Below are positions 8,223-29,327 of a stretch of DNA of 36,056 nucleotides, in pieces. Every line of letters begins with the position of its first letter. Positions within the stretch are counted from its first letter, which is position 1. Made by a program: the position numbers and the translations under genes. The notes below the pieces were generated by a model. It was not told the DNA's origin and did not search any database. It worked only from the letters and a program-made list of their open reading frames with translations. The DNA is taken from positions 1 to 36,056 of the forward strand of contig NZ_VDFU01000033.1 of NCBI RefSeq assembly GCF_006152115.1, given 5' to 3'. This DNA is from Rubellimicrobium rubrum (GTDB lineage Bacteria; Pseudomonadota; Alphaproteobacteria; Rhodobacterales; Rhodobacteraceae).

Positions 8223-8264
8223 AGAGCGTCCTTTCGCGGCTGTCGTATGCATCTCGTTTCGCGT

Positions 8265-10243: not shown

Positions 10244-10274
10244 GGATTGCCCTCGCGATCCGAGCTCGGGCGCA

Positions 10275-12113: not shown

Positions 12114-12122
12114 CTCAAACTC

Positions 12123-14063: not shown

Positions 14064-14163
14064 GGTACTGCTTCTCCCAGCTCGGCATACGTCGAGGCGC
14101 AGCCCCGCAAGGAAAACCCTCGCTGGGCTGGGCGCTGTTCAGGGTCCAAGGCCCTTGTTGGTT

Positions 14164-15105
14164 TTAGCGGCTGATCGTAGCTTGGAGCGCATTGATCGAG
14201 GATTGAACGCCTGCCTCGGTGGACATGGTGAAGTCCTCCATTTCCAGGCTCACCCAGCCATTGTAGCCGCACATGCGGACCACTGAGAAAAACTCCTTCC
14301 ACCACTGAAGGTCACGTCCTGCGCCCACGGCAACGTAGTTCCAGGCCCGGTTGGCGACGTCGGTGACGTCCTTGAGCTCCAAAAGGCCGTTCACATCCGC
14401 GAGGCCTCGCTCGATGCGTGTGTCCTTTCCGTGGCAGTGGTGGATTGCCCCCTTGAGCGCGCGGGCCGAGGCAATGGGGTCCGCTCCCATCCACATCAGG
14501 TGCGAGGGGTCGAGGTTCATGCCGACCTTGGGTCCAACTGCGTTGCGCAAGCGGAACAGCGTCTCGGGGTTCCACACCAGCATGGCACTGAAGTTCTCGA
14601 GCGCGTAGCGCTCCACCCCTACCTCGTCGGCGAGCCTCACAAGGCCCTCCCAATAGGGGATCGCGCAGTCTTCCCATTGGTACCGGTCGCGCTCGGGCAT
14701 CTCGTCGGGCCAGCTCTTGGTGTAGACGAGCCAGTTCGGGACCGTGTCGCCAGGCGCGGCGGCTGGGAGGCCGGACATGGTCACCACAGTCTTGACGCCG
14801 ATCTCGCCCGCAAGACGGACAGTTTGCTCGATCTCGCGGCGGTGCCGCTCGCCCAGGGGACCCGGGTCGAGGGGGTTGGCGGAGCAATTGAGCGCCGCGA
14901 TCTCGAGGCCGCGCGCCTCTATCTCCTTGAGGGCAGCCCTGAGCGCACCCTTGTCAGCCAGCAGCCGGTCGGCGCGAAAGTGGGGACCTTTGGACCAGCC
15001 GCCGCCGGTCATCTCGATCCCCTCGACGCCTAGCGCCACGCATTTGTCGAGCATGTCAGTAAAGGACAACTCGCCCATTACGTCAGTGCAAATGGAAAGC
15101 TTCAT
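14164..15105 (-). CDS. Sugar-phosphate isomerase/epimerase-family TIM barrel
   Basis: This 313-residue AP-endonuclease-2-like TIM barrel of the xylose-isomerase superfamily starts MKLSICTDVMGELSF and shows metal-site candidates: Glu in YALENFSAM, Asp-His in MNLDPSHLMWMG, His in IHHCHGKD, and Glu in VSLEMEDF. It sits between iolG and iolC, exactly where IolE (2-keto-myo-inositol dehydratase) or an inosose isomerase would be expected. However, the N-terminus does not resemble canonical IolE, which begins with a P-I-W/S-N-D-D type motif. It may be the dehydratase by replacement, or an inosose isomerase/epimerase. The ATG at 15103-15105 is set by the barrel's first strand; the longer reading frame upstream overlaps iolG and is spurious. 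Confidence 0.85.
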   Translation of the reverse strand: MKLSICTDVMGELSFTDMLDKCVALGVEGIEMTGGGWSKGPHFRADRLLADKGALRAALKEIEARGLEIAALNCSANPLDPGPLGERHRREIEQTVRLAGEIGVKTVVTMSGLPAAAPGDTVPNWLVYTKSWPDEMPERDRYQWEDCAIPYWEGLVRLADEVGVERYALENFSAMLVWNPETLFRLRNAVGPKVGMNLDPSHLMWMGADPIASARALKGAIHHCHGKDTRIERGLADVNGLLELKDVTDVANRAWNYVAVGAGRDLQWWKEFFSVVRMCGYNGWVSLEMEDFTMSTEAGVQSSINALQATISR

Positions 15106-15140
15106 CGGTTCTGTCTTCTCTTTAGGAGGAGCGCCGGGCC

Positions 15141-16163
15141 TCAGGCCGCGACGGCGACCGGCACTCCGTAGAGCGCGGGCTTGCCGCGCATCCGCACGGG
15201 TTCGAGGTGTCCACTCTCGACCGCCCGGAGAGCCGCGTCGGCGACCAGGGTGGCCGCATAGCCGTCCCAAGTGCTGGGGCCCGTTGCCGTGCCCTGGCCG
15301 GCGGCAGCGATCCACTCGCGGAACTCCTGGTCGTAGGCGTCGATGAAGCGCTCGCGCCAGTCCTCGGGAATGGCCTGGCGGATGCCGTGATGGTCGCTGA
15401 TAACGGTGGCCGGGCGGTTCGGGAGCGAGGCCACGCCCTCCTCGCAGCTCACTTCGCCGCGAATGTCGTAGCCGTAGCCAATGTTCACCGAGATCTCGAC
15501 ATCCACGAGCGCGCCGGAGACGGTGTGCAGGAGCACCAGGGTCGGATCGCGGAGGTCCTTGCCACGCAAGGAGCGTCGGGGCACGCGCACCTCCACGCCG
15601 GTGATCTCATCGTCGAGGAGCCAGCGCGAGATGTCCGCGTCATGCACCAGCGTGTCGTTGAGGGGCATGTCGGAGGTGTAGAGTCCCTCAGGCACCGAGG
15701 CGTTGCGATGCACCGAGTGGTAAAGGAGCGGCGCGCCCAGGGTGCCGCCGTCGATCACCGCCTTGAGACGACGGTAGTCGCCATCGAAGCGGCGCATGAA
15801 GCCCACCTGCACGAGGCGGCGCCCGAAGGCCACTTCGGCGTCCATGACCCGTATTGCGGCGGCTTCGGATGTCACGAGGGGCTTCTCGCAAAAGACCGGC
15901 TTGCCGGCGCTGATACACTCGAGAAGCTGCTCTTCATGGGCGGGACCCCAAGAGCAGATCACCACCGCTTGCACGCTCTCGGACCGGATCAAGGCTTGGG
16001 GCGTATCGAAGACCTCGGCGCCCTCGGGAGCAGCGGTCAGGGCGCGCCCCTGATCAATGTCGGTGACCGCGACCACCCGGACGCCGGACAGGACTTGCGT
16101 GAGACGGCGGATGTGGTCCTGACCGATCATCCCCGTCCCAATGACTCCAACGCGAAGGGTCAT
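15141..16163 (-). CDS. iolG: Inositol 2-dehydrogenase (IolG)
   Basis: This 340-residue Gfo/Idh/MocA dehydrogenase closely follows Bacillus IolG in pattern. It has the Rossmann loop [12 protein letters not shown], then VTDID, the SWGPAHEE segment, EKPL with the catalytic Lys94, and [11 protein letters not shown]. The catalytic Asp170/His174 lie in [14 protein letters not shown]. The C-terminal [10 protein letters not shown] plus [17 protein letters not shown] is characteristic. It oxidises myo-inositol (and probably D-chiro-inositol) to the keto-inositol with NAD. Its start codon overlaps the stop of the upstream IolH-like gene by four bases (ATGA), a classic coupled operon junction. Confidence 0.93.
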
Positions 16164-17065
16164 TTAGCGCTCCAATGCTTGTCGATGTAGCGTTGCATCT
16201 CGGCGCGCATGAACGTGCCGGACTGGTCGGCCTTGTCTTCCCAGGCGAAGACGCAGGCGGTCATGATGCCGTCGAAGCCGATCTCGGCCAGCGTGCCGAA
16301 GAAGTCGTCCCAGGGCACTTCGCCCTGGCCGATGTTGAGGTGCTGGTGAACACGCGCCTGGGTGCCGGGCGGGTTCAGGATGTAGCGCAGGCCCGAGGAG
16401 GCCTTGTGGTTGAACGTGTCGCCCACATGGACATGCGCGATCACGTCCTTCGCCTCGCGCAGCATCGCGACGGTGTCGTCGCCGAAGTAGAAGGTGTGGG
16501 GCGCGCAGTAGAGGAACTTCACGCGTGGGGAATTCACCGTGCGGATGATGTCGAGAGCGGGCTGGATCGTCTCGCACCAGTCCTCGGGGTGCGGCTCCAC
16601 ATGGAGGTTGATGCCCTCGCGCTCGAAGATCGGCACGAGCTCTTCCATCGAACGCCACCAGGCGTCCTCGCAGGCCTCGACCATGCTTCCGGTGTGGCAG
16701 CAGTAGCAGGACCCCTTGTCCGGGTGCGGGCCGCGCCCGAACTCGGAGTTCATGGTGTCCACTTCCATCTCGACCGCAATCTCGATGGCGCGCTTCCAGT
16801 GCTTGACCGCCGCCTGCCGCTCCGTCTCGTCGGGGGACGCCCAGCGGTACATTGGCAGCAGCGACGCGATCTTGACGTTCTCCGAGGCCAGTGCCGCCTT
16901 GAAGGTCCGGATGCGGTCGGGGAACACCCGGGGCGCCTTGAACCATTCGAGGAAGTCGCCCCGCGGGCTCATCTCGATCCAGTCGTAGCCCAGCTCGCGC
17001 ACCTTGCGCGGCAGATCCTCAAGCGAGAGGTGGCGGTGCATGAAGGGGTCGAGGGCGATCTTCAT
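16160..17065 (-). CDS. iolH: IolH-like sugar-phosphate isomerase/epimerase
   Basis: This 301-residue TIM-barrel protein resembles IolH of Bacillus-type inositol operons. It opens with [19 protein letters not shown] and has [51 protein letters not shown] and [18 protein letters not shown]. IolH is conserved in inositol clusters but its reaction is unsettled. Metal ligands are likely Glu in HVEPHPEDW, His in [10 protein letters not shown] and residues of [11 protein letters not shown] chose the ATG at 17063-17065 because AAGGA lies at the right distance and the first beta strand starts there; an in-frame start six codons earlier is weaker. A CxCCH motif (SCYCCHTGS) in a loop near residue 120 is unusual and might bind a metal. 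The gene overlaps iolG by 4 bases. Confidence 0.85.
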
Positions 17066-17117
17066 CGTGGGGTCCTTCGCCATACAGGCGTCGCGGGAAA
17101 GTGGGGTAGGGATTGCT

Positions 17118-17151
17118 GGCGCCGCGTGGTGGGTCGTCCCGCTGCGGCGCC
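17118..17151 (-). terminator. Stem-loop after the ABC importer genes
   Basis: GGCGCCGC (17118-17125) pairs with GCGGCGCC (17144-17151), an 8-bp stem with an 18-base loop just beyond the ATPase stop (17157) and before the IolH-like gene. There is no U-tract, so it more likely attenuates or processes the mRNA between importer and enzyme genes than ends it. Confidence 0.5.
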
Positions 17152-17156
17152 TAGAG

Positions 17157-17972
17157 TTACGCTACAGGCGATGCGCGACTGCCTTCAGCGTCCATGACGT
17201 CTTGGACCTCGGCATCGAGGTTGGCCAGGGACTCGCCACCAGCCATGAGGTCGGTGATCTCCTCGCGGGTCTTCTCGCCCTTGAGGAAGTTCGCAGCGAG
17301 CGCGCCTCGGATCAGCACAGCGAAGTGGTCGCCGACGGCCATGGCGTGCGTGACCTGGTGGGTGATAAAAATCACCGCGAGCCCGCGCTTGCGCGCCTCC
17401 AGCACGATGCGCAGGACGTGGGAGGCCTGTTTGACGCCGAGCGCGGCCGTAGGCTCGTCAAGGATCAGAAGGCGGGCGCCGAAGTGGACGGCCCGGGCGA
17501 TAGCCAGTGACTGGCGCTCGCCCCCTGACATGCCGCCCACCAGGCGGTCGCCATCGTCGATGCGCGTGATGCCGAAGCCTTGGATCGACTTCACCGCGAT
17601 CTCGTTGGCGGTGGCTCGGTCGTAGATCCGGAGCGGCCCCCACTTCTTGGTGGGCTCGCGGCCCACGAAGAAGCAGCGTCCGACGCTCATCAGCGGGAAG
17701 GTGCCGCCGAACTGGTGGACCGTAGCTACGCCCATCTCGCTCGCCTCGCGAGGGTTGGCAAAGGTGACCTCCTTGCCGTCCATCAGGACGATGCCGGAGG
17801 TCGGCTTGTGCACGCCTGAGAGAGTCTTGATGAGCGTGGACTTGCCGGCTCCGTTGTCACCGAGAAGGCAGAGGACCTCCCCAGCATCAACCTTGAGCGA
17901 GATATCGTGGAGGACGTCTATGGGACCAAAGGACTTGTTGACGTGGCGAAGCTCGATGATCGGAGCAGGCAT
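17157..17972 (-). CDS. Sugar ABC importer ATP-binding protein (single ABC domain)
   Basis: This 271-residue ATPase carries Walker A GDNGAGKST, the Q-loop region TVHQFGGTFPLMSVG, signature MSGGERQSLAIARA, Walker B LLILDEPTAALG and the switch FITHQ. It resembles one half of RbsA/MglA-type sugar ATPases, as in FrcA-like rhizobial importers where a single domain dimerises. Its start codon overlaps the permease stop as TGATG (17970-17974), so the two are translationally coupled. With the adjacent permease and binding protein it should energise uptake of an inositol-type polyol. A second binding-protein gene at 25.9 kb has no ATPase of its own and may use this one. Confidence 0.93.
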   Translation of the reverse strand: MPAPIIELRHVNKSFGPIDVLHDISLKVDAGEVLCLLGDNGAGKSTLIKTLSGVHKPTSGIVLMDGKEVTFANPREASEMGVATVHQFGGTFPLMSVGRCFFVGREPTKKWGPLRIYDRATANEIAVKSIQGFGITRIDDGDRLVGGMSGGERQSLAIARAVHFGARLLILDEPTAALGVKQASHVLRIVLEARKRGLAVIFITHQVTHAMAVGDHFAVLIRGALAANFLKGEKTREEITDLMAGGESLANLDAEVQDVMDAEGSRASPVA

Positions 17973-19021
17973 CACGACTTTCCCTTCTTCGGGCTGTAGT
18001 TGAGCGCCATCTTGCGGAACGTGTTATTCAGGAGCACCGCGAGGAGCAGCAGCACGCCGATGATCAGCGACGCCCAGTTGGCGTCAAATCCGGTGTAGAA
18101 GATGCCTTGGTTGACGATGGCGAAGGTGATCGTCCCGAAGACTATGCCCACCACTGAGCCGAAGCCCCCGGTCAGCAGCACGCCGCCGATCACCACCGAG
18201 ATGATGGAGTTGAAGATGAAGCTCTGCCCCGTGGAGACCTGGGCCGAGTTGTAGAGGATCGCCTGGGAGATGCCGATGAAGGCGGCCGCGAACCCGCTAC
18301 TCATGAAGAGCTGGATGATAAGGCGGTCGATGGGGATGCCCTCGTTGCGGGCAGAGACCTTGTCGCCGCCCAGAGCAAAAATCCAGTTTCCCCAACGCGA
18401 GATGTGAAGGAGGAAGCCCACCACGACTATGGCCACGAGCCACCACAGGATGGTGACTTGGAAAATGCCGGCAATGAACTGACCCAGCAGCGCTTTGCCA
18501 ATCGGGCCTGTTTGGATCGGGACGCCAGTGCTGCCAGTGATGATGACACTGAGACCCAGAGTGAGGCCCGCCACAGCGAAGAGGCTGCCCAGGGTAACAA
18601 TCAGCGACGGCACACCGGTGCGGATCACGAGGATCCCGTTGACGAAACCCACGAGGAGGCCAAGCGCCAGGGCCGCGGCAACGCCAAGGATGAGGGGCAG
18701 GCCGAAGTAGCCGGAAATGATCGCCACTGTCATCGAGGCGGCAGGGATGACCGAGCCGATGGAGATATCGAGTTCGCCGGCGATCATCAGGAGACCAACG
18801 GGCAGAGCAACGATGCCAATCTCGGCGGCGACGTTGAGCCAGCTCGCCGTGCCGCCTAGCGTCACGAAATTTGCGCCTCCGGCGATGGCGAAGAATATGA
18901 AGACAATCACCATACCAAGGAACGAGCCCGCTTCGGGCCGGCGCGCCAGAGCGCCGAATGAGAAGCTGCGGGCAGATCGCGTGGCGGGTGGCGCGCCTGT
19001 TCGGTGAAGGGTATCGGACAT
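17972..19021 (-). CDS. Sugar ABC importer permease (RbsC-like)
   Basis: This 349-residue, very hydrophobic inner-membrane protein of the BPD_transp_2 family has about eight to ten membrane segments, starting with FLGMVIVFIFFAIAGGANF. The family motif ELDISIGSVIPAASMTVAII lies near residue 75 and GGVLLTGGFGSVVGIVFG near 270. The first 35 residues are cytoplasmic and Arg/Ser-rich. The start MSDTLHRTGAPP (ATG at 19019-19021) has a GGGAG site; the longer reading frame upstream lies within a stem-loop and is unlikely. It should import the ligand of the adjacent binding protein, most likely myo-inositol or a close relative. Confidence 0.92.
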   Translation of the reverse strand: MSDTLHRTGAPPATRSARSFSFGALARRPEAGSFLGMVIVFIFFAIAGGANFVTLGGTASWLNVAAEIGIVALPVGLLMIAGELDISIGSVIPAASMTVAIISGYFGLPLILGVAAALALGLLVGFVNGILVIRTGVPSLIVTLGSLFAVAGLTLGLSVIITGSTGVPIQTGPIGKALLGQFIAGIFQVTILWWLVAIVVVGFLLHISRWGNWIFALGGDKVSARNEGIPIDRLIIQLFMSSGFAAAFIGISQAILYNSAQVSTGQSFIFNSIISVVIGGVLLTGGFGSVVGIVFGTITFAIVNQGIFYTGFDANWASLIIGVLLLLAVLLNNTFRKMALNYSPKKGKS

Positions 19022-19061
19022 TGCGGTGAGGCTCCCGGAGGGTGATCCTGATCGCGGCATG

Positions 19062-19109
19062 GCGCCACCCTGGCACCGGCCGCTTGGCCGCGACCGGCCC
19101 CGGTGGCGC
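19062..19109 (-). repeat. Nested stem-loop between binding-protein and permease genes
   Basis: GCGCCACC (19062-19069) pairs with GGTGGCGC (19102-19109), with a smaller hairpin inside (CGGCC 19077-19081, GGCCG 19086-19090). Such structures after a binding-protein gene commonly protect its message and reduce read-through, giving excess binding protein over membrane components. Confidence 0.6.
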
Positions 19110-19156
19110 AAGGCCTGGGGAGCCGGTCGGATCGATCTGGGCGGTCAGTGCCCGCC

Positions 19157-20137
19157 TTAGCGGGTGCCGGACGCCACGCCGGCCATCGTCGCCTCGACAT
19201 TCGAGGCGTCCACGATGCCGGGGCCGGTCAGGATCTGCCTAGTTGGCACAGTCAGGCCGTAGTTGACGTAGTTGTTCAGCAGCGCCACCGCGAGGAAGCC
19301 CTGGAGGTAACCCTGCTGGTCAATGGCGAAGAGTTGCGAGCCAGCTTGGATGTTGTTCAGGATGGTCTGGTCCATATTGACGCCGCCGAGCTTGACCCGG
19401 TCGGCCGCGCCCGCCTGCGTAATCGCGATGGACGCCGAGTTAGCGTCCACGTTGCCGATGGTGTAGAGACCCGTCACCTCGGGGTTCTGAAGCAAGTGCG
19501 CCTTGATGGCCTGCGTGACAGCGGTCGGGTTGCCGAAGCTCGTCATCGGCAGCGGCAGCTCTTCGGCCGTACCACCTTTACCTGTGGCGCCCTCGGCCAG
19601 ACCCGCACATTGCGCCTGCAGGTTGGCGGCGCCGGGTAGCGTGTTGACGCAGACAAGGTTGGTAACGCCCGCTTCAGCGAAGTACTCGCCAGCGGCTTTG
19701 CCCGCGAGGAAGTCGTCGCTGCCCACGTAGTTCATGGCGCCCAGCCGGTCGGCGGCCTCTAGACCACCGGCGTTGTAGATGATGAGCGGGATGCCGGCCT
19801 CGGTCACGGCCATGAAGGCCTCGTCCATCGACTCCGGAACCCAGTCGGGGCCGACGATGGCGTCGGCACCTTGGGCGATGGCAGTACGGATAAGGTCCGC
19901 CGCGTCGGCGCCAAGATTGTCGTAGTTCTGCGGCCCGAGCCAAGTCACGGTCCCGCCCTGGGCTTCGACGATCTGACCCGCATCCTCGGCACCGCGCTTA
20001 ACGATGGACCAGAATGGGTCATCCGCCTTGCCGCCGATGACGAAAATGTTGGCGCCATCCTGCGCCATGGCCGTGCCCGCCGAGGCAATAGCAGCCGTAG
20101 TCATGAGGGCAACTGCGATGCCCTTGAAGTTTGTCAT
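19157..20137 (-). CDS. Periplasmic sugar/inositol-binding protein 1
   Basis: This 326-residue Peripla_BP_4-type protein has a signal peptide (MTNFKGIAVALMTTAAIASAG, likely cut after AMA). The mature part begins QDGANIFVIGGKADDPFWS. The ligand-cleft segments DPFWSIVKRG, GPDWVPESMDEAF and IIYNAG are clear. It is a close paralogue of the second binding protein at 25.9-26.9 kb and resembles inositol- and rhizopine-type binding proteins (IbpA/MocB-like) in its family. It is the first gene of the inositol operon and starts 148 bases from the divergent LacI-type gene. A GGAGGAG site precedes the ATG at 20135-20137. Ligand identity is inferred from the operon, not from residues. Confidence 0.9.
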   Translation of the reverse strand: MTNFKGIAVALMTTAAIASAGTAMAQDGANIFVIGGKADDPFWSIVKRGAEDAGQIVEAQGGTVTWLGPQNYDNLGADAADLIRTAIAQGADAIVGPDWVPESMDEAFMAVTEAGIPLIIYNAGGLEAADRLGAMNYVGSDDFLAGKAAGEYFAEAGVTNLVCVNTLPGAANLQAQCAGLAEGATGKGGTAEELPLPMTSFGNPTAVTQAIKAHLLQNPEVTGLYTIGNVDANSASIAITQAGAADRVKLGGVNMDQTILNNIQAGSQLFAIDQQGYLQGFLAVALLNNYVNYGLTVPTRQILTGPGIVDASNVEATMAGVASGTR

Positions 20138-20208
20138 GTGATGCTCCTCCCAGTTCGCTTTAACAGCGATGCTTTCTTCGTGAGCTGCTGCATATCTCAA
20201 GGTTTCTT

Positions 20209-20266: not shown

Positions 20267-20285
20267 TTGACACATGAGAGATGTC

Positions 20286-21320
20286 ATGAAGAGACCCAGG
20301 ATCGTCGATCTTGCTCAAGCGGCTGGCGTTAGCGTGGCTACGGTCAACCGGATCTTGAGCGGCTCGACTTCGGTGCGTGTGGCTACAATCCAGCGGGTCC
20401 AGGACGCTGCGGCAGAGATTGGCTTCCACGGCCTGAATACGATCGATTCGCGCCGGACGAAGTCCATGCCCTATTATCGCCTGGGCTTCCTACTTCAGCA
20501 GTCTAGCCGCGAGCTCTACCGCCTGTTCGGACAAAAGATCGAAGAGGCAGCGCTTCAGCGGCAGCACGAACGCATTGAGCCTGTTTTGGAGTTTGTGGAC
20601 AGGCTCGAGCCCGAAAACATCGCAGCTCAGCTGAAGGCATTGGGCAATACCTGCGATGCCATCGCCCTGATTGCAGGAGATCACCCATTGATTGGGCAAA
20701 CCATCCAAGCTCTCAGGGCCAATGGCAAGCCAGTCGTGGCCTACATCACCGATCAGTCGGCCCCCGGACGTGCGGGCTACGTGGGCACCGATAACTGGAA
20801 GCTTGGTCGGACGGCCGCTTGGTTTATAGCGCAGACAACCAAGGGCTCTGGCCGGATCGCCGTTCTGATCGGAAACCATCGTTATCAGTGTCAGGACATC
20901 TCGGATGCCAGCTTTCGCTCTTACATCCGCGAGAATGCACCTCACCTGACGGTCGATGATTGTCGGCCGACGCATGAGGAGCCTCAAGAAGCCTATCGCA
21001 TTACAGCTCGATTGCTTACGGAATTGGACGATCTGGTCGGCATCTATATCGCCGGAGGCGGGATTTCTGGAGTATTGCAGGCCTTGAGGGAAGCACCGGA
21101 GGGGAAGCACCGCTCGGTCCGTCTCGTGTGCCGGGACATCGGACCGGAGACGCGAAAGGGCCTAGCCGAAGGGTTGATCACTGCAGCGCTGTGTCATCCT
21201 CTTGAGCAGACTTCGAGCCAGCTCGTCCAGACTATGATCGATGCTATAGGGCAACTGCAGGGCAGCCCGATCCTGCAGCGAACTATCCCTTTCGAGATTA
21301 TCACCCCAGAGAGCCTTTGA
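20286..21320 (+). CDS. LacI-family transcriptional regulator 1
   Basis: This 344-residue repressor-type protein has an N-terminal LacI helix-turn-helix (RIVDLAQAAGVSVATVNRILSGS) with hinge region, then a sugar-binding-protein-like effector domain (YYRLGFLLQQSSRELYR... GRIAVLIGNHRYQCQD... GIYIAGGGISGVLQAL). The start at 20286 (MKRPRIVD) gives the family's usual short lead to the HTH and has a GAGAG upstream; an ATG at 20274 is also in frame. It is divergent from the inositol operon and a clear paralogue of the second regulator at 28.3 kb. It probably represses the operon until an inositol or keto-inositol binds. Its effector domain belongs to the branch with an LLQQSSR motif, shared by both copies. 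Confidence 0.9.
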   Translation: MKRPRIVDLAQAAGVSVATVNRILSGSTSVRVATIQRVQDAAAEIGFHGLNTIDSRRTKSMPYYRLGFLLQQSSRELYRLFGQKIEEAALQRQHERIEPVLEFVDRLEPENIAAQLKALGNTCDAIALIAGDHPLIGQTIQALRANGKPVVAYITDQSAPGRAGYVGTDNWKLGRTAAWFIAQTTKGSGRIAVLIGNHRYQCQDISDASFRSYIRENAPHLTVDDCRPTHEEPQEAYRITARLLTELDDLVGIYIAGGGISGVLQALREAPEGKHRSVRLVCRDIGPETRKGLAEGLITAALCHPLEQTSSQLVQTMIDAIGQLQGSPILQRTIPFEIITPESL

Positions 21321-21484: not shown

Positions 21485-22486
21485 TCAAGCGAGCACGTTT
21501 GCGACGTTCACCGCTTCGCCCGTCACGCACGACCGCGTCGCGGCCTCGGCCAGGGTTAAGGCGTCGATACCGTCCTGAAGCGTCACAGGTACTGCGGTCC
21601 CGGCCTCCACCGCCACCACGAAGGCCGCCCATTCGGCCGCGTAGGCACGCATGTAGCGCTCGAGGAAGAAGAACTCGGGCTTGGCGCTGACCACGCCCCC
21701 CGCCGTGGACTTGGCGACCGTGTGCTCGAGCATGTTACCGGCGCTCAGCAGCCCTTCAGAGCCTAATAGTTCCACGCGCTGGTCATAACCGTAGACAGCT
21801 CGGCGTGAGTTCTTGATGACAGCGATGCGCCCGTCAGCCCACCGGAGGGTGACGACGGCGGTGTCGACGTCGCCTGCCGCCCCGATGGCGGGGTCGATGA
21901 TCGACGAGCCTACCGCCATCACCGTTTCAGGTAGGGTCCCCATGAGCCAGAGCGCCATATCGAAATCGTGAATCATCATATCCCGGAAGAGCCCGCCCGA
22001 CACTTTGACGTAGGCGACAGGGGGAGGCGCGGGATCGAAGGAGGTGATGGACAGAAGCTCGGGCCTGCCAATCTCACCTGTGTCAGCGGAAGCCTTAAGG
22101 GCGGCAAAGTTAGGGTCGAAGCGGCGGTTAAAGCCGATCATCACGGGCTGCCCGGTCGCGGAGGTACGACCAAGACAGGCCCGAGCCCGCTCGAGGCTCA
22201 GGTCTACCGGCTTCTCGCAGATCACGGCCTTGCCGGCGGCCGTGGCAGCCTCAATCAGGTCTGAGTGGGTGTCCGTCGAGGTGGCCACGAGCACCGCGTC
22301 AATCGCAGGGTCGGTGAGGATGGCCTCCGTGGTGCACGCCTTGGCACCGTGTTGGGCAGCCAGCCACCCAGCCGCATCCACGTTAACGTCGGATACCGCT
22401 ACTAAGCGGCTACCTGGGTGGGAGGAGATAGCGCGAGCATGAACGGTGCCGATGCGACCGGCGCCGAGGAGACCGACGTTGAGCAT
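21485..22486 (-). CDS. idhA: Inositol 2-dehydrogenase, rhizobial IdhA type
   Basis: This 333-residue Gfo/Idh/MocA dehydrogenase is of the rhizobial IdhA/IolG branch. It has GLLGAGRIGTVHARAI, VSDVN, EKPVDL with catalytic Lys92, IGFNRRFDPNF, and GGLFRDMMIHDFDMALWL with Asp169 and His173 as catalytic pair. It oxidises myo-inositol (and relatives) to the 2-keto form. It is clearly distinct from the IolG in operon 1, so the window has two inositol dehydrogenase types. It is the last gene of operon 2, 48 bases after the PanB-like gene, and converges on regulator 1. In operon 2 it may oxidise the inositol released from a substituted precursor. The ATG at 22484-22486 has an AGGA site. Confidence 0.9.
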   Translation of the reverse strand: MLNVGLLGAGRIGTVHARAISSHPGSRLVAVSDVNVDAAGWLAAQHGAKACTTEAILTDPAIDAVLVATSTDTHSDLIEAATAAGKAVICEKPVDLSLERARACLGRTSATGQPVMIGFNRRFDPNFAALKASADTGEIGRPELLSITSFDPAPPPVAYVKVSGGLFRDMMIHDFDMALWLMGTLPETVMAVGSSIIDPAIGAAGDVDTAVVTLRWADGRIAVIKNSRRAVYGYDQRVELLGSEGLLSAGNMLEHTVAKSTAGGVVSAKPEFFFLERYMRAYAAEWAAFVVAVEAGTAVPVTLQDGIDALTLAEAATRSCVTGEAVNVANVLA

Positions 22487-22534
22487 GGATGATCCTGGAT
22501 TTGAGAAGCCGTCGCGAGGCGACAGACGCGGGAT

Positions 22535-23359
22535 TCAGACCTGTGCGGCTGAGAGGAAGTTGTCGAACTCGGCGTCAGCCATCGGTACGACGTGCTTGGC
22601 CTCGGGGTAGGCGCCCGAGGCCACGTCGGCCTTAAACTCACCGAAGGCGGCGACGCGCTCGGCTTGCAGGCGGGCGAACTCGGCGTGGAAGTCGCGGTAG
22701 GTCTTGGCGTGGCGCGGCTTGTGGCCCCGTGTGTAGCCCAGCACGTCCTCGGCAAAGAGGTACTGCGCGTCCGCCCCCGGCCCCGCACCCATGCCCAGCA
22801 TGATCATGGAAGTGTTGCGCGAGATCCAGGCGCCCAGGCGGTCGGGAACGACTTCGAGCTCGGCTCCGAAGGCGCCGATGGCCTCCAGGCGCTGGACGTG
22901 CTCCCAGACAGCGCGCGCCTCGCTTGCGGTCTTGCCGACGGCGCGGAAGCCGGTCCAGGTGATGTAGGAGGGGATCAGGCCCACATGCGCCACGATGGGG
23001 ATGTGGTTGTCGCAGAGCACCTTCTGGATGTCCAAGGAGGCCGCGCAATAGAAGCAGTCTCCGCCAATGGTGGCGAAGTGGAAGGCCGCGCGCAGGTAAT
23101 CCTCGGCTGTGGCGAGCGGCCGGCCCTCAAAGGTCCCGCATCCGCCATAGGGCAGGCCCACCTGCACGAAGCAGGAACCCGCCGCCTCGCGCATCGCGGG
23201 CGAGAAGAAGCGCCCCTCGATGGAGAGCATATTGATTCCCGCCGCATTGGCGGCAGCCGCCTCGTCGGGGGTGGTGACGTAGAGCATTGAGATCTTTCGA
23301 CCTTGCGCTTTCATGGCGCGGAAGTCGGCGACGGTGGGACGAGCGTTGTGTTGGGCCAT
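22535..23359 (-). CDS. Divergent PanB-like (ketopantoate hydroxymethyltransferase family) protein
   Basis: This 274-residue protein has the fold pattern and length of PanB (3-methyl-2-oxobutanoate hydroxymethyltransferase): RKISMLYVTTPDEAAAANAAG, HVGLIP with His125, ELEVVP with Glu169, LGMGAG (188-193), and EDVLGYTRGHKPRHAKTYRDF near the C-terminus. The metal-site motifs of PanB are changed, however. VGDS is replaced by IEGR (47-50), ADLPF by VGLPY (67-71), and KIEGG by FYCAA (103-107). It therefore probably does not make ketopantoate; a C-C bond-forming or bond-cleaving role in operon 2 is possible. The start MAQHNARP (ATG 23357-23359) lies two bases after the stop of the Hyi-like gene, so the two are coupled. 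A longer in-frame reading upstream overlaps that gene and is spurious. Confidence 0.8.
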   Translation of the reverse strand: MAQHNARPTVADFRAMKAQGRKISMLYVTTPDEAAAANAAGINMLSIEGRFFSPAMREAAGSCFVQVGLPYGGCGTFEGRPLATAEDYLRAAFHFATIGGDCFYCAASLDIQKVLCDNHIPIVAHVGLIPSYITWTGFRAVGKTASEARAVWEHVQRLEAIGAFGAELEVVPDRLGAWISRNTSMIMLGMGAGPGADAQYLFAEDVLGYTRGHKPRHAKTYRDFHAEFARLQAERVAAFGEFKADVASGAYPEAKHVVPMADAEFDNFLSAAQV

Positions 23360-23361
23360 GA

Positions 23362-24138
23362 TCAGACCGTGAATGTAGTGCGGAAGGCTTCCAGGGCGGC
23401 TTCGGGGTCGCCGGAGGCCCAGGCCTCCATGCCGACCGGGCCGGTGTAGCCCATCACTACGAGGGCGCGGGCCACGCCGGGCCAGTTCACCTCGCCGGTG
23501 CCGGGCTCGCAGCGCCCCGGCACGTCGGCCACCTGGATTTCGCCGATCCAGGGGAGGCACTTGCGGCAAAGCTCGATCAGGTTCCCCTCGCCGATCTGGG
23601 CGTGGTAGAGGTCGAGGTTGAGGCGCAGCCTCGGGTGGTCGATGGAGGACACGAGCGCGAGCGTGTCCTCGGCCCGGCCGAAGGGGACGCCGGGGTGGTC
23701 GACGGGGAGGTTCAGGTTCTCGAGCGTGAAGGTCACGCCCTCCTCCTCGGCCATGTCCACCACGCGGGACAGGGTGTCGCGGGCCTTGAGCCACATGGCC
23801 CCGGTGACAACCTCGATGGGCTGGACGGGAAGACCGCCCTCGCCCAGGCCGGTGCCGTGAAGGTTGAGGCGTTGCACGCCCAGGCGCTTGCCCACCTGCG
23901 CGGTCTCGCGGGCGGTGGCCAGCAGCTCCGCCGCGCCCTCGTCGTCGGTGAGGCGGCCGCGGAGGTAGCCGTTCATGATGGTGAAGGTGGCGCCCGTCCG
24001 CTCCAGGGCCGAGAGGTCATGCTCGGGCCAGTTCCAGAGGCCGACGCCGAAGCCCATCTCGTGCAGGCGCGACGCGCGCCACTCGATCGGGCGGTCGCGC
24101 CAGAGCATCTCGGCGCAGGCGGCAAGGGGGAAGGTCAT
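23362..24138 (-). CDS. Hydroxypyruvate-isomerase-like TIM-barrel protein
   Basis: This 258-residue member of the Hyi branch of the sugar-isomerase TIM barrels shows the catalytic Glu in FTLENLNLPVDHPGVPFG, a metal-binding Asp-His in LNLDLYHAQIGEGNL, the characteristic IGEIQVADVPGRCEPGTGEVNW, and a second Glu near the end (VGMEAW). Hyi interconverts hydroxypyruvate and tartronate semialdehyde, but the branch also includes enzymes acting on other keto-sugars. The ATG at 24136-24138 follows the ferredoxin stop after one base; a TTG four codons upstream would overlap it. Tight coupling to MocE-like ferredoxin and PanB-like genes places it in the operon 2 pathway; its substrate is unknown. Confidence 0.85.
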   Translation of the reverse strand: MTFPLAACAEMLWRDRPIEWRASRLHEMGFGVGLWNWPEHDLSALERTGATFTIMNGYLRGRLTDDEGAAELLATARETAQVGKRLGVQRLNLHGTGLGEGGLPVQPIEVVTGAMWLKARDTLSRVVDMAEEEGVTFTLENLNLPVDHPGVPFGRAEDTLALVSSIDHPRLRLNLDLYHAQIGEGNLIELCRKCLPWIGEIQVADVPGRCEPGTGEVNWPGVARALVVMGYTGPVGMEAWASGDPEAALEAFRTTFTV

Positions 24139-24139
24139 G

Positions 24140-24451
24140 TCAAAGCCCAATCAGCACCCGGTCGCCTTCGATGCGCACCGGGTATGTGTTGAGGTTCACG
24201 CACACTGGAGCCCGCTTGGCCTGGCCGGTGCGGTAGTCAAACTGGCCGTTGTGCTTGGGGCACTCGATTGCGTAGTCCATGACCAGCCCCCCCGCGAGGT
24301 GGACGTTCTCGTGGGTGCAAAGCCCGTCCGTGCAGAAGAACTCGCCGTCCGGGGAGTGGAAGATCGCGAAGGTGCGTCCGCCGTGGTCCCAGCGCATCAC
24401 GTCCTCCTCGTCGATCTCGTTTGTGGCGCAAGCGTCGGTCCAGGTCGTCAT
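24140..24451 (-). CDS. mocE: MocE-family Rieske [2Fe-2S] ferredoxin
   Basis: This 103-residue stand-alone Rieske ferredoxin has cluster ligands Cys45-x-His47 (CTH) and Cys64-x2-His67 (CPKH), and no signal peptide, so it is cytoplasmic. The patterns DEEDVMRWDHGGRTFAI, FFCTDGLCTHENVHLAGGL and APVCVNLNTYPV are those of the MocE family, named after mocE of the Sinorhizobium rhizopine (moc) genes, where it serves the oxidative removal of the O-methyl group of 3-O-methyl-scyllo-inosamine. It should carry electrons to an oxygenase; the membrane di-iron hydroxylase at the head of the same operon is the obvious partner. No ferredoxin reductase (MocF-like) is present in the window. Confidence 0.92.
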   Translation of the reverse strand: MTTWTDACATNEIDEEDVMRWDHGGRTFAIFHSPDGEFFCTDGLCTHENVHLAGGLVMDYAIECPKHNGQFDYRTGQAKRAPVCVNLNTYPVRIEGDRVLIGL

Positions 24452-24590
24452 GGATAGGTCCTATTGGGGTGAAACGGTTGTTAATCTTGAGGCTGCACCA
24501 GACACGACGGGCTGACTGCACCCCCAGGACTGATCTTCGAAACGCAAAGCCTGCCGAGAAGGGCTCGCAAGGAAGCCGCATTTGTCGATA

Positions 24591-25832
24591 CTAGCTTTGG
24601 ACCGAAACGCCCTTGCCAGGGAGCCCAGGCTCCCCAGTTGACCCTTCATCAGTCGAGGCGTTCAGCTCGCAATCTTCCCAAGAGCCTGACTCATTTGATC
24701 GCACCGCTGCCTCGACGAAGGCGACTCCGGCGGCGGCGTCCTTGACGGTCGGATAGCCAAGCATCCCGTCGGGAAGCACTTGGCCAGTTCGTCGGGCCTC
24801 CACCGCGAGGCCGAGCTCCGTGTAAAGGTTGGCCCAGGCTTCGAGGATACCCTCGGGGCAGCCGCGCGGCATCCGGGCGAGGCGGCGCGCCTCCGGGTAG
24901 AGGCCGCCTGCGAAGCCGGATTGATAGCGCTGCGCCGGGGCGTCGAAGGGCGTCACGATCAGCTCGTCGCCTCGTTCCTGGTTCCAGTCGAGGGCGGCCT
25001 TGGTGCCGAAGACCCGCAGCCGCAATCCGCACTGGTTCCCGATGGCGGCTTGGCTGACCATGAGCGTTCCCGGCACGCATCCGAAGCGCATGTGGCAGAA
25101 GGCGGTGTCTTCGAGGTCCTTCGGCTCGCCTGAGACGTGGAAGTCGGCGCGCACGCTCGTCGCCGGTTGGCCGGTGACGAAGCTCGCGAGGTGAACAGCG
25201 TGGGTCCCGATGTCGCCGGTGGTGAAGCTGCCGCCGCTGCGCGCGGGATCGACCCGCCAGGGCTGCTTGCCCCCAGCATCGGCGATCAGGGTCGCCGCGA
25301 ACTCCTGGAAGTATTCGACATGGATCTGCCGCAGATCGCCCAGCTCGCCGGCGCGGATCATGGCACGGGCCTGCCGGACCATGGAATAGGCCGCGTAGGC
25401 GTAGGTCACACCAAAGACGAGGCCGGAGGCCTGCTGCGCCTCCACGAGGCGCAGGGCGTCCTCCACGGTGGGCGCGAGAGGCTTGTCGCAGATGACGTCG
25501 ATTCCCTCAGCTAGGAAGGCCTCGGCCACGGGCGCGTGCAGGTGATTGGGCGTCACGATCGCCACGGCGTCGATGCCCTGCGGGTGCGCCGCTTCGGCGC
25601 GGGCCATGGTGCGGAAGTCGGCGTACGTCCGATCGGAGGGCAGCAGCCACTCCCGGCCGGATTGCCGGGCCCGGTCGGGGTCGGACGAAAGGGCACCGGC
25701 CACGATTTCCCAGCGGCTCGACAGCCGCGCAGCCTGGGCGTGGATGGCTCCGATAAAGGCGCCGGCGCCGCCGCCCACGAAGCCCAGCCGCATCAGCCGG
25801 GAAGGCGGCGGGAACGGCGTGAAAGTAGGCAT
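24591..25832 (-). CDS. MocA-like Gfo/Idh/MocA-family oxidoreductase
   Basis: This 413-residue dehydrogenase is larger than the other three of its superfamily here. The Rossmann loop is RLGFVGGGAGAFIGAIHAQA with the branch-typical WEIVAGALSSDPDRA. It then has VTPNHLHAPVAEAFL, CDKPLAPT with the catalytic Lys, and GGSFTTGDIGTHAVHLASF holding Asp and His. This branch is often found with sugar-isomerase TIM barrels and polyol importers. The last 25 residues (rich in Gly, Ser and Pro) extend beyond the usual fold. The start MPTFTPFPPP (ATG 25830-25832) is chosen because the loop begins 13 residues later; a longer frame overlaps the stem-loop upstream. A 139-base gap separates it from mocE. Confidence 0.87.
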   Translation of the reverse strand: MPTFTPFPPPSRLMRLGFVGGGAGAFIGAIHAQAARLSSRWEIVAGALSSDPDRARQSGREWLLPSDRTYADFRTMARAEAAHPQGIDAVAIVTPNHLHAPVAEAFLAEGIDVICDKPLAPTVEDALRLVEAQQASGLVFGVTYAYAAYSMVRQARAMIRAGELGDLRQIHVEYFQEFAATLIADAGGKQPWRVDPARSGGSFTTGDIGTHAVHLASFVTGQPATSVRADFHVSGEPKDLEDTAFCHMRFGCVPGTLMVSQAAIGNQCGLRLRVFGTKAALDWNQERGDELIVTPFDAPAQRYQSGFAGGLYPEARRLARMPRGCPEGILEAWANLYTELGLAVEARRTGQVLPDGMLGYPTVKDAAAGVAFVEAAVRSNESGSWEDCELNASTDEGSTGEPGLPGKGVSVQS

Positions 25833-25886
25833 GGTCACGGATGTTTCCTTGTCACGGACGCGTGCTTGGCTCGGCAAAAGGGAGGA

Positions 25887-25916
25887 GCCGGCCCTAGGAG
25901 ATGCTCTAGGGCCGGC
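25887..25916 (-). repeat. Perfect 11-bp stem-loop after binding protein 2
   Basis: GCCGGCCCTAG (25887-25897) pairs exactly with CTAGGGCCGGC (25906-25916) across an 8-base loop, starting 10 bases beyond the binding-protein stop. There is no U-tract. As at the first binding-protein gene, it probably stabilises the upstream message or partly terminates transcription. Confidence 0.7.
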
Positions 25917-25926
25917 GGCTGGCTTA

Positions 25927-26907
25927 TCAGCGTGCCCCGGCCGCGACGCCGGCAATGGTCGCCTCGATGTTGCTGCTGTCCACGATGCCGGGCCCGGTCA
26001 GGATCGGGGCCGTGGGTACATCAAGGCCGTAGTTGACGTAGCCGTTGAGGAGCGACACCGCGAGGTAACCCTGGAGGTAGGGTTGTTGGTCGATGGCGAA
26101 GAGCTGATCGCCCGCCTTGATCCGGTCAAGCGTACCCTGGTTCATGTCAAAGGTGCCGAGCGCGACGCGATCGCCCACGCCGGCCTGGCTGACTGCGATG
26201 GCCGCGCTGTCGGCGTCGCCCGCACTGATGGTGACGAGGCCATCCACGGTGTCGTCCTTGAGGAGCACGGCCTTGATCGCCTCGGCAACTGCAGTCGGGT
26301 TGCCGAAGCTGCTCGCAGGCAGAGGCAGTTGAGTGGAGATCCCGCCGTTCTCGGCCATACCCTCGGCGATGCCTTGGCAGCGGGCCTCGAGGCTCGCGGC
26401 ACCCGGGATCGTGTTGACGCAGATAACGTTCTTGGCCCCGTGCTCTGCGAGGTAGGCCCCACCTGCGCGGCCAGCTTCGGAGTCATCGCTGCCGATGTAA
26501 TTCATGGCACCAAGCTCTTCGGCCTTCGCGAAACCGCCGGCGTTATAGATGATCACAGGGATTCCAGCATCCACCGCCGTCTTGAAGGCGTCGTCCATGG
26601 CCTCGGGCACCCAGTCGGGAGCGACGATGGCATCGGGAGACTGACTGATTGCCGTTCGGATCAAGTCGGCCGCGTCCGCGCCGAGATTGTCGTAGGTCTG
26701 CGGGCCGAGCCAAGTGACAGAGCCACCCTGAGCCTGAACAACCAGGCCCGCGTCCTCGGCGCCGCGTTTGACGATGGACCAGAATGGGTCGTCTGACTTG
26801 CCGCCTACCACGAAGATGTTGGCGCCATCCTGGGCGGCGGCAGCCGTGGCAAACCCTACGAGGGCCGTGGCTGCAAGGAGCGCCCGCAGGCGCATCGTGG
26901 CCGTCAT
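25927..26907 (-). CDS. Periplasmic sugar/inositol-binding protein 2
   Basis: This 326-residue protein is a close paralogue of binding protein 1: same length, the same mature start DGANIFVVGGKSDDPFWS, and the same GPDW/APDWVPEAMDDAF and VIIYNAGGF cleft segments. It has a signal peptide (MRLRALLAATALVGFATAAAA). Differences concentrate in the middle third, around EAGRAGGAYLAEHGAKN and the LPLPASSFGNPTAV region, consistent with a changed ligand. A GGAGGAG site precedes the ATG at 26905-26907. No permease or ATPase gene accompanies it, so it likely docks on the importer of operon 1. In context its ligand may be the substituted inositol that operon 2 processes. Confidence 0.9.
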   Translation of the reverse strand: MTATMRLRALLAATALVGFATAAAAQDGANIFVVGGKSDDPFWSIVKRGAEDAGLVVQAQGGSVTWLGPQTYDNLGADAADLIRTAISQSPDAIVAPDWVPEAMDDAFKTAVDAGIPVIIYNAGGFAKAEELGAMNYIGSDDSEAGRAGGAYLAEHGAKNVICVNTIPGAASLEARCQGIAEGMAENGGISTQLPLPASSFGNPTAVAEAIKAVLLKDDTVDGLVTISAGDADSAAIAVSQAGVGDRVALGTFDMNQGTLDRIKAGDQLFAIDQQPYLQGYLAVSLLNGYVNYGLDVPTAPILTGPGIVDSSNIEATIAGVAAGAR

Positions 26908-27043
26908 TCTCTGTCTCCTCCCTGGGCCGCCGTGAGCGGCGTTTGTCGTTGTTCGCGGCCTGACGCCGTCTTGGTGTTGGATCGGCTTGAAAGTAATGGG
27001 TTGCCCGACATTCTCCGTCGGCCGGACGCCTATGCTGCTTGCA

Positions 27044-28078
27044 TCACTCGGCAGGGGTCTGCCGCGCCTTAGCCTGTTTGGCGTTCATGCGCTCGACCTT
27101 CTTCTGGTAGCGGGCCTCCATGCGGGCCTCGCCTTCCTTGCTGCCGTCGTGCCAGGTGCCGAACCACTGATCGAGCGGAATGAGCCCATCGCCGCCGTAG
27201 TTCACCTCGAAATGCTTGTGGTGGAGGTAGTGGGTGTAGGCATGACCATCCATCACAGTGTCTTCCGTGAGCTCCAGCCGATGGAAGCCCAGATGGCCGT
27301 TCACTGCCCCAAAGCCCGCCATATGGAGCTGGAACAGACCGACGATCGGGTTCGAGGGGATCACGAGGTGCCAGAGCGCCACCGCGTGGTAGAGGAAGCC
27401 CTCCACCGGGTGCATCGACAACGACGACCAGGGCGACGGGTTCACCGAGTTGTGGTGGACCGAGTGGATCCACTTGTAGAGCGGGCCCCAGTGGATCAGC
27501 CGGTGGATGCAGAAGAAGTGGACTTCGTGAATTATGGGCGCCGCGAGCACCAGGAGAGCCAAGTAGACCGGGTGGTCGGCCCAGCCGAGCCATGGGACAT
27601 AGCCGTTGGCGAAGCACCAGAGCATGAACACCTCGACCACTGTCCAGAGCGGGATCGAGATGAAGAAGCTGCGCAGGAAGTTGTCGATGTTCTGGCTTTG
27701 GAACCAGAACACGTCCGAGGGCTGCTCGGCGGGGAACTTGCCGTTATACTTGAAGCGCCGCTCCTGCTTCTGGAGCACGTAATAGCGCAGCTCGAAGATG
27801 CCGTAGAAGACGAAGATGGCGGCCGCGTTCACCGCGTAAAGCCAGAGCGCCCAACCCCAGGACAGGGTCTGCAGGGTCTCCAAGTCAGGAATGACAAGAT
27901 ACCAGTAGGCGAGCGTGGTCGCCATGTGGAAGGCGTTCCACGGCCAGACGTACTCCAGCGCGAAGCGGCCCAGGTCACGCAGACCGAAGGCACCGCGCCA
28001 GAACGGCGGCAGCGCGACGGTCTCGTGAGGGGTGAAGTCACCCCGCTTGTTGCGTTTGCCGAATCTGAGATCGTCCAT
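27044..28078 (-). CDS. Membrane di-iron hydroxylase, fatty-acid hydroxylase/sterol desaturase family
   Basis: This 344-residue integral membrane protein has four or more hydrophobic helices (about 50-65, 75-98, 138-160, 170-190). The family's three histidine clusters are complete: His192-x3-His196, His205-x2-His208-His209, and His283-x2-His286-His287. They bind a di-iron centre that activates O2 for hydroxylation. Start MDDLRFGKRN (ATG 28076-28078) has a GGAGAG site. It is the first gene of operon 2, divergent from regulator 2, and shares the operon with the MocE-type ferredoxin, a plausible electron donor. In the rhizopine system the MocD oxygenase is a different di-iron family (desaturase/alkane-hydroxylase-like), so this would be an analogous, not orthologous, oxygenase. 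A lipid hydroxylase role is the main alternative. Confidence 0.88.
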   Translation of the reverse strand: MDDLRFGKRNKRGDFTPHETVALPPFWRGAFGLRDLGRFALEYVWPWNAFHMATTLAYWYLVIPDLETLQTLSWGWALWLYAVNAAAIFVFYGIFELRYYVLQKQERRFKYNGKFPAEQPSDVFWFQSQNIDNFLRSFFISIPLWTVVEVFMLWCFANGYVPWLGWADHPVYLALLVLAAPIIHEVHFFCIHRLIHWGPLYKWIHSVHHNSVNPSPWSSLSMHPVEGFLYHAVALWHLVIPSNPIVGLFQLHMAGFGAVNGHLGFHRLELTEDTVMDGHAYTHYLHHKHFEVNYGGDGLIPLDQWFGTWHDGSKEGEARMEARYQKKVERMNAKQAKARQTPAE

Positions 28079-28307: not shown

Positions 28308-29327
28308 ATAGGCCGTCGGGTTACCATAGATGACTTAGCCGAGGCCGCTGGCGTGAGTGTCTCAACAGTGGACCGCGTGCTAACCGGTCGAGCCAAAGTG
28401 CGCCCGAAAACAGCAGAACGGGTCCTCGCTGCCGCCGAGGCGATAGGTTTCTATGCGGCTCCCATCCTGCGAGAGCGGCTGGAAACTGTGCAACCTGTGC
28501 ATCGCCTCGGCGTGCTCCTCCAACAGTCGAGCCGCACCTTCTACAGGATGCTCGCGGAGGCGCTTTCTGAGGCGGCCGCGGGCGACCCTGGCTTAGGTCT
28601 AGACATTGCTCATATGGACGACCTCTCGCCCGAAGCAGTAGCGGCGCGCATGATGGAGATGGGATCGAACGTCCAAGCGCTGGCCGTGGTCTCTGCCGAA
28701 CATCCCCGCATCACTGAGGCAATCGAAAAACTCGCTAGCAAAGGCGTCCGCACTGTGGCGCTCATATCGGCTCTTACCGCTCCCTCAGGCGTCGCCTACG
28801 TCGGCCTCGACGCTTGGAAGGTGGGCCGCACTGCCGGCTGGGCCTGCGCTCGGCTCGCTCGTACACCAGGCCGCCTAGGCATCTTAGTCGGGAACCACCG
28901 CTACCGCTGCCAAGAGCTCAATGAGTCAGGGTTTCGCTCATACCTGCGCGAACATGCCCCTAGCTTTACCGTTCTCGAGCCGCTGACAACTTTCGAGGAT
29001 CGTGTGGTCGCGCGTGAGCAGACCGAGAGACTGCTGGCGGCTGAGCCTGACCTAGCTGGGCTTTATGTTGCGGGCGGCGGCATCACTGGAGCGCTAGCTG
29101 CGGTTCGGGACGCTGCCCGTGAGAGCCTTGTGGTGGTAGGCTATGAAAGGATGCCCACGACCACGACTGGCCTCCTCGACGGCACACTTGACTTCGTGAT
29201 CGCGCATCCCCTCCAGCGCCTGGCAACCGAATGCCTAGAGGCGCTGCTGCAATGCGCCCAAGATCCCAACTATCGGCCGAACGATCGCGTCGTACCCTTC
29301 GAACTTGTGACGTCTGAAAGTCTATGA
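28308..29327 (+). CDS. LacI-family transcriptional regulator 2, no ATG/GTG/TTG at the expected start
   Basis: This about 339-residue paralogue of regulator 1 shares the LLQQSSR, LVGNHRYRCQE and GLYVAGGGITGAL segments and the C-terminal VPFELVTSESL. The intact HTH (RRVTIDDLAEAAGVSVSTVDRVLTG) begins before the first standard start codon (GTG 28353), which would remove half of it. In frame, ATA at 28308 lies 7 bases after AAGGAG and gives a normal LacI N-terminus; the stop TGA at 28272-28274 excludes anything further upstream. The ATG at 28303 is out of frame and meets TAG after two codons. Either ATA is used as a rare start, the ATG has mutated, or the sequence lacks a base. It is divergent from operon 2 and is its likely regulator. 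Confidence 0.85.
   Translation: MGRRVTIDDLAEAAGVSVSTVDRVLTGRAKVRPKTAERVLAAAEAIGFYAAPILRERLETVQPVHRLGVLLQQSSRTFYRMLAEALSEAAAGDPGLGLDIAHMDDLSPEAVAARMMEMGSNVQALAVVSAEHPRITEAIEKLASKGVRTVALISALTAPSGVAYVGLDAWKVGRTAGWACARLARTPGRLGILVGNHRYRCQELNESGFRSYLREHAPSFTVLEPLTTFEDRVVAREQTERLLAAEPDLAGLYVAGGGITGALAAVRDAARESLVVVGYERMPTTTTGLLDGTLDFVIAHPLQRLATECLEALLQCAQDPNYRPNDRVVPFELVTSESL

Follow-up and report, generated by a model that had tools for sequence, protein, structure and literature searches.

An operon of Rubellimicrobium rubrum with a PF04116 di-iron oxygenase, a MocE ferredoxin and a PanB-like protein: a proposed route for O-demethylation of inositol methyl ethers

The closest described counterpart of the operon considered here is the moc system of rhizopine catabolism. 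Its genes were named as mocDEF, mocR, mocBA and mocC only (PMC10107442), the rhizopine 3-O-methyl-scyllo-inosamine (3-O-MSI) is an O-methyl compound (PMC6668481), and the reaction of MocD was given as the conversion of 3-O-MSI to scyllo-inosamine (SI; PMC2593844). LacI regulators of the FixV type were linked with mocDEF clusters and with an inositol-like inducer (PMC3538637). We analyzed a stretch of 36,056 nucleotides from Rubellimicrobium rubrum (contig NZ_VDFU01000033.1; hereafter the window), in which a minus-strand operon of seven genes (21485-28078) combines a MocE-type ferredoxin with a membrane di-iron oxygenase of family PF04116, next to an inositol (iol) operon. Taking the sequence evidence together, we consider it likely that the operon serves to O-demethylate a pinitol-like methyl ether of inositol with electrons from a ferredoxin, and that a PanB-like protein moves the one-carbon (C1) unit to tetrahydrofolate (THF).

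When compared with the moc system, the operon shares the MocE-type ferredoxin, the PanB-like protein, a sugar-type binding protein and a Gfo/Idh dehydrogenase and, if its substrate is as proposed, an inositol-derived substrate class. It differs in that its oxygenase belongs to PF04116, whereas the moc oxygenase is the PF00487 protein MocD; a LacI regulator stands in place of MocR, and the operon is without MocF and has an IolG gene of its own. The LacI (FixV-like)/mocDEF clusters of rhizobia (PMC3538637; loci L094 and L095) resemble the operon in the divergent LacI, MocE and PanB-like genes, and L095 also in a TIM-barrel gene, but their oxygenase is of the MocD type.

The operon and the conservation of its gene set

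All seven reading frames of the operon were open and followed one another in order on the minus strand. The first gene (27044..28078) encodes the oxygenase, a protein of 344 amino acids (aa) and the proposed O-demethylase, which matched PF04116 (fatty-acid-hydroxylase/sterol-desaturase superfamily) with 63.5 bits against a cut-off of 31. It is followed by the second periplasmic sugar-type substrate-binding protein of the region (25927..26907; PF13407, 130 bits), a Gfo/Idh/MocA dehydrogenase (24591..25835; PF01408, start ATG 25835 picked from the reading frame), a MocE-family Rieske [2Fe-2S] ferredoxin as proposed electron donor (24140..24451; TIGR02377, 166.8 bits against 136.15), a TIM-barrel isomerase/epimerase-like protein (23362..24138; PF01261, start candidates ATG 24138 or TTG 24150), the PanB-like protein with an altered PanB active site, proposed to transfer C1 units to THF (22535..23359; PF02548, 117.6 bits against 28.7), and an IolG-type inositol 2-dehydrogenase (21485..22486; TIGR04380, 420.4 bits against 355). 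A LacI-family regulator, assigned by profile match, is divergent from the hydroxylase gene (28353..29327, plus strand). The frames and profiles bore out the minus-strand operon of these genes, with two dehydrogenases among them, that the first-pass annotation had described.

The start of the hydroxylase at 28078 is backed by conservation, which sets in at MDDLRFG, 40 residues from the beginning of the longest open reading frame (ORF). Numbered from this start, three histidine boxes are present (H192xxxH196, H205xxHH209 and H283xxHH287), and the eight motif histidines were invariant in 19/19 aligned sequences (the window's included), in agreement with the three clusters claimed at first pass. 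The protein is the sole PF04116 match in the window's genome. When solved structures were searched with its sequence, one chance match was obtained (E 0.54). The fatty-acid-hydroxylase histidine motif is common to this protein and alkylglycerol monooxygenase, in which ether cleavage is a hydroxylation next to the oxygen, followed by collapse of the hemiacetal (PMC3617469). That enzyme differs in its use of tetrahydrobiopterin and a lipid ether and has a pterin-contacting Glu next to the second motif His (PMC3617469). In the hydroxylase this Glu is replaced by Trp when placed by motif rather than by alignment. The missing pterin-linked Glu is in line with a ferredoxin as donor.

When the proteins of GTDB genomes were searched with the hydroxylase, 132 relatives were confirmed, of which the best 80 were kept. 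Co-occurrence was counted within 9 kb of the hydroxylase gene, in the 69 of 80 loci with at least 7 kb of downstream sequence. The recurring order was LacI, hydroxylase, binding protein, permease, ATPase, MocE, TIM barrel and PanB-like, often then IolG. Among the 69 loci, LacI was found in 65, the binding protein in 64, the permease and the ATPase in 62 each, the TIM barrel in 59, MocE in 58, the PanB-like gene in 57, IolG in 34, MocF in 15 and PurU in 9; over all 80 loci, 62 had MocE and 60 had the PanB-like gene. Conserved co-occurrence of the hydroxylase with MocE and inositol genes, which had been put forward as a check at first pass, was thus observed. The gene set is kept across Rhizobiales and Rhodobacterales, which excludes a chance association, and was also found in two betaproteobacterial metagenome-assembled genomes (MAGs; L055 and L064). 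As a control, 22 other PF04116 genes were chosen among the strong matches that had been listed in 289 Alphaproteobacteria, and the DNA around each was examined (stretches mostly of 19 kb, with three shorter ones of 6.3, 12.2 and 14.5 kb). MocE or PanB-like matches were present in 0/22 of them.

At the threshold used, the Gfo/Idh/MocA dehydrogenase was found at the position of permease and ATPase in one of the 80 relatives (L002). Most other loci have an ATP-binding cassette (ABC) permease and ATPase there, and L003, the second closely related locus, breaks off before its arrangement can be seen. The window's operon may borrow the transporter of the adjacent iol operon. A form with LacI, hydroxylase, MocE and binding protein was observed in Sinorhizobium and Shinella (L082, 10919-13711; L084, 10892-16468; L085, 10844-16462). 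It occurs on pSymA of S. meliloti 1021, and L084 and L085 also carry genes for a flavin adenine dinucleotide (FAD) reductase and an isomerase. In locus L253, a PF04116 gene of the module clade (at 9772) lies beside PanB-like, TIM-barrel and ABC genes, and no MocE was found in the 19 kb.

Two oxygenase families in one module

In plasmid MocE loci, a MocD-type fatty acid desaturase occupies the place of the PF04116 gene. Locus L096, on a plasmid of Rhizobium indicum, was considered a rhizopine locus because its MocR scored 739 bits against a cut-off of 650. Its gene order is Gfo/Idh (at the position of MocA), binding protein (at that of MocB), MocR, MocD (PF00487), MocE, MocF, PanB-like and PurU, followed by ABC genes; the names MocA, MocB and MocF were assigned here from the gene order in PMC10107442. 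The PanB-like gene, a full-length PurU and a FolD fragment lie 3' of mocDEF in this locus (8616-10929). The PanB-like proteins of the window and L096 share 53 % identity and the MocE proteins 60 %. Between the hydroxylase and MocD of L096 no sequence similarity was detectable (E 0.35), and the earlier statement that the oxygenase is of another di-iron family than MocD was confirmed. In Bradyrhizobium (L099), PanB-like, PF04116-type, Rieske ferredoxin, sugar isomerase and FAD reductase genes stand in a row.

When 385 Alphaproteobacteria were searched for MocE, 23 places in 20 genomes were obtained, 14 of them over the cut-off. The oxygenase within 9 kb of these 14, as read from larger stretches or from the window, was of the MocD type at nine, PF04116 at three, both at one (L128) and neither at one (L126). 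The PanB-like protein was also searched for in a sample of 398 Pseudomonadota, with matches at 28 places distributed over 19 genomes; 24 neighbourhoods were tallied, the other four being three in the window's genome and L137. Within 9 kb, 15 of the 24 have MocD (one of these calls, L254, at just 33 % identity), four have PF04116 and five neither, and MocE is present in 18. Among those without an oxygenase, L234 has MocE and a TIM gene, L238 borders the end of its contig, and the PanB-like match in L255 to L257 is no more than distant or partial.

The window's genome contains two more MocE modules, both with MocD-type and PanB-like genes (L123, 5142-8592, contig C12; L124, 9428-16629, contig C13). 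The PanB-like frame on contig C12 was reported with one internal TAG. When a quick tree was drawn for MocE, the window's protein grouped with that of L002 and with both MocD-type MocE proteins of its own genome (starred, 97), so that, within a single genome, closely related ferredoxins occur beside either type of oxygenase. Both the MocE tree and the PanB-like tree were built by a quick method and many of their forks are weak; no history was drawn from the PanB-like tree, which has long branches.

As judged from family membership and gene order, two oxygenases without detectable sequence similarity alternate in one module. The first-pass annotation had proposed a separate O-demethylation route. 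O-demethylation is well supported by this context because the module holds either a MocD or a PF04116 enzyme and also occurs in a locus with a passing MocR, but in place of a separate route we see a swap of oxygenase within one module. Its other suggestion, removal of an amine or side group, gained no support. The PF04116 and MocD-type oxygenases were also observed together (L128, 6375-11857; L077, 10013-16131; L069, 5960-11718; L036, 10001-19445), and such loci perhaps serve different methyl positions.

The PanB-like protein and a proposed one-carbon route

The PanB-like protein scored 77.3 bits on the panB equivalog TIGR00222, below the cut-off of 207.55. An alignment to the PanB of the same genome showed that the protein lacks the VGDSLG stretch, that it has Gly for the Asp in VVVDMPF, and that in VKLEGG Tyr stands for Lys and Ala for Glu. 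Unchanged are GxGA, the His in HxGL and the Glu in the LE motif that follows HxGL. We take the missing residues to be those that hold the keto-acid and the metal in PanB; at a position that is presumably Asp in E. coli, the genome's own PanB has His. In a Foldseek search with a structure model of the PanB-like protein (predicted local distance difference test, pLDDT, 78), the first 28 rows were all PanB chains. The protein is thus like PanB (ketopantoate hydroxymethyltransferase) in fold and differs from it in a changed active site. Ordinary pantothenate synthesis was rejected as its role, since a full-scoring PanB (339.7 bits) is encoded by another gene of the genome and the PanB-like proteins of both the window and L096 are below the equivalog cut-off.

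We concluded that the PanB-like protein probably transfers C1 units to THF, because its companions are an oxygenase, a ferredoxin, PurU and FolD. PurU was found in 10 and FolD in five of the 80 loci, and neither in the 22 controls. Where present, PurU is on the hydroxylase strand in nine of ten loci and FolD in all five; the exception is L043, where PurU and MocF are encoded upstream of the hydroxylase and on the opposite strand. In L014, L020, L031 and L033 the PF04116 operon continues via IolG and MocF to PurU and FolD, and L055 (a Comamonadaceae MAG) has hydroxylase, MocE, PanB-like, IolG, PurU, FolD and MocF all in one direction. PurU of L020 (333.5 bits against 285.95) and FolD of L055 (518 against 421) are over their cut-offs. 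PurU is also carried by the MocD-type locus L245. MocF, PurU and FolD in some PF04116 operons represent a folate route from methylene-THF to formate. In the window's genome, FolD and formate-THF ligase (FTHFS) genes adjoin on contig C15.

A similar pair is present in the TRIS degradation cluster, in which a catabolic step yields methylene-THF and FolD and PurU were proposed to recycle it; the THF-loading enzyme there differs, being of the serine-hydroxymethyltransferase type and not PanB-like (PMC10848231). Spontaneous condensation of formaldehyde with THF was described as too slow, and E. coli PanB was discussed as an enzyme that might promiscuously catalyse it, but loss of both panB and ltaE had no effect in E. 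coli (PMC7073904). This deletion speaks neither for nor against the PanB-like subfamily. The subfamily could be a dedicated loader of the oxidised O-methyl carbon (formaldehyde or hydroxymethyl ether) onto THF, common to both di-iron oxygenase families and feeding folate without free formaldehyde; we put this forward tentatively and rate its chances as somewhat below even.

Substrate, alternative readings and significance

The adjacent iol operon (4721..20200, minus strand, profile matches) was present as claimed at first pass. Its iolA-type, iolB, iolC-J fusion and iolD genes pass the curated cut-offs, and below them are an iolE-like gene (25 bits against 290), a chiro-inositol-dehydrogenase-like gene (379 against 540) and an IolG-like gene at 8265. 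Among its family assignments are also Gfo/Idh, TIM-barrel, ABC ATPase, permease and binding-protein genes, and class I fructose-bisphosphate-aldolase-type and GlpX-type genes lie inside it (6269-8252). A second LacI-family regulator (20274..21320, plus strand, profile match) stands between both operons. When central-CG palindromes were searched as LacI operators in 72 regions (70 intergenic regions from relatives and two from the window), one isolated match in L008 was obtained and nothing conserved. Elsewhere in the window (32019-33649), a short PdxR/MocR-like ORF and a Nim-type nitroimidazole-reductase-like gene lie on opposite strands; the ORF (32765-33649, 294 aa, about the first half of the model) scored 171 bits on MocR against 650.

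We favour an inositol methyl ether, pinitol first, as the substrate because of IolG, the adjacent iol operon, and the chiro-inositol-dehydrogenase-like and iolE-like genes that one group of relatives has inside the hydroxylase operon. Of the compounds measured in the root exudate of Mimosa, pinitol reached the highest concentration, and mocDEF homologues and inositol genes were up-regulated in R. mesoamericanum, which the authors read as rhizopine use (PMC5789663). The same paper reported a root-exudate-induced fatty-acid-hydroxylase gene with less than 40 % identity to orthologues of other bacterial genomes.

In the proposed mechanism, the compound imported by the operon would be an inositol with an O-methyl group, most likely one of plant origin such as pinitol, ononitol or a related methyl-inositol. 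Electrons from reduced nicotinamide adenine dinucleotide (NADH) would pass to MocE through a MocF-type FAD reductase encoded elsewhere; no MocF is among the operon's genes, and the best homologue in the genome (40 % identity) is on contig C104. MocE would feed the PF04116 di-iron enzyme, which would hydroxylate the O-CH3 carbon to a hemiacetal. The PanB-like protein would hand the C1 unit to THF, directly or as formaldehyde, and the methylene-THF would be converted to formate by FolD and PurU or, in the window's genome, by FolD and formate-THF ligase. After oxidation by IolG and isomerisation by the TIM-barrel protein, the freed inositol would enter the adjacent iol pathway. In sequence terms the proposal rests on the families, the intact histidine boxes, the conserved linkage and the interchange with MocD in the module; from these we infer which reaction takes place and on which substrate, how the electrons travel and what the PanB-like protein does.

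Several observations weigh against O-demethylation coupled to C1 capture. The loci were all collected by way of the hydroxylase and are relatives of one another, so they are not independent. At the threshold used, 11 of the 69 loci are without MocE inside 9 kb; two of these (L066 and L073) have it slightly beyond. The Sinorhizobium/Shinella form (L082, L084, L085) has no PanB-like match, and C1 capture is therefore not always coupled. PurU is absent from 70 and FolD from 75 of the 80 loci; the window's operon has neither, and no PurU over the cut-off was found in its genome. The structure model of the hydroxylase is weak (pLDDT 70), and Foldseek gave no match with E < 0.001. In addition, the binding protein scored 183 bits on NF052284 (rhizopine substrate-binding protein, SBP), below the cut-off of 420. 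The binding protein beside MocR in L096 also reached just 39.8 bits on this model, after which the name MocB-like was dropped for the window's protein.

Four other readings were considered. The first is C-demethylation, in which the C-methyl group of a branched inositol would be oxidised to hydroxymethyl, IolG would make the neighbouring ketone, and the PanB-like protein would move the unit onto THF by retro-aldol cleavage, as PanB reversed. It accounts for the PanB ancestry, FolD, PurU and the IolG of the operon. However, the same kind of PanB-like protein occurs with PurU in the rhizopine locus L096, where the rhizopine is an O-methyl compound, and the residues taken to hold keto-acid and metal are missing; we consider this reading unlikely. 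Ring hydroxylation, which would turn a deoxy-inositol (quercitol type) or another unsubstituted cyclitol into inositol directly and without a C1 unit, fits the inositol genes downstream, and PF04116 enzymes commonly hydroxylate C-H bonds. It is improbable, as it leaves the PanB-like gene of 57/69 loci and the PurU and FolD genes unexplained.

For a rhizopine (3-O-MSI) route proper, MocE family membership and the module shared with L096 can be cited. The operon, however, has LacI and neither MocR nor MocD, its binding protein does not reach the curated cut-off for rhizopine SBPs, and the family matches of the operon include no candidate for an aminotransferase or deaminase, so that we regard such a route as very unlikely. 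Modification of a lipid or membrane, with a fatty acid or an inositol lipid as the substrate of the hydroxylase and a position beside inositol genes due to chance, is suggested by the superfamily name and by the public-record annotation 'lipid metabolic process', but was rejected as highly improbable because the operon context of sugar transporter, MocE and PanB-like genes is conserved across orders and common to none of the 22 other PF04116 loci. The first-pass annotation had named clustering with lipid or sterol hydroxylases unlinked to inositol genes as the outcome that would speak against it; this was seen neither in that context nor in a quick tree, which placed 53 module hydroxylases on one side of a branch and the 22 other PF04116 proteins on the other. 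The support of this branch is just 44, a further point against our proposal.

Methyl-inositols are abundant in plants, and pinitol is reported to cross the symbiosome membrane in Lotus (PMC8730688). In a literature search, mostly at abstract level and with few subscription papers, no bacterial gene set for O-demethylation of pinitol was found described. If O-demethylation by this operon is true, the enzymes of inositol methyl-ether demethylation would be named. The PF04116 superfamily, known mostly for lipids, would then contain a ferredoxin-driven sugar-ether demethylase, and the PanB-like protein would be a candidate catalyst for the formation of methylene-THF from formaldehyde.

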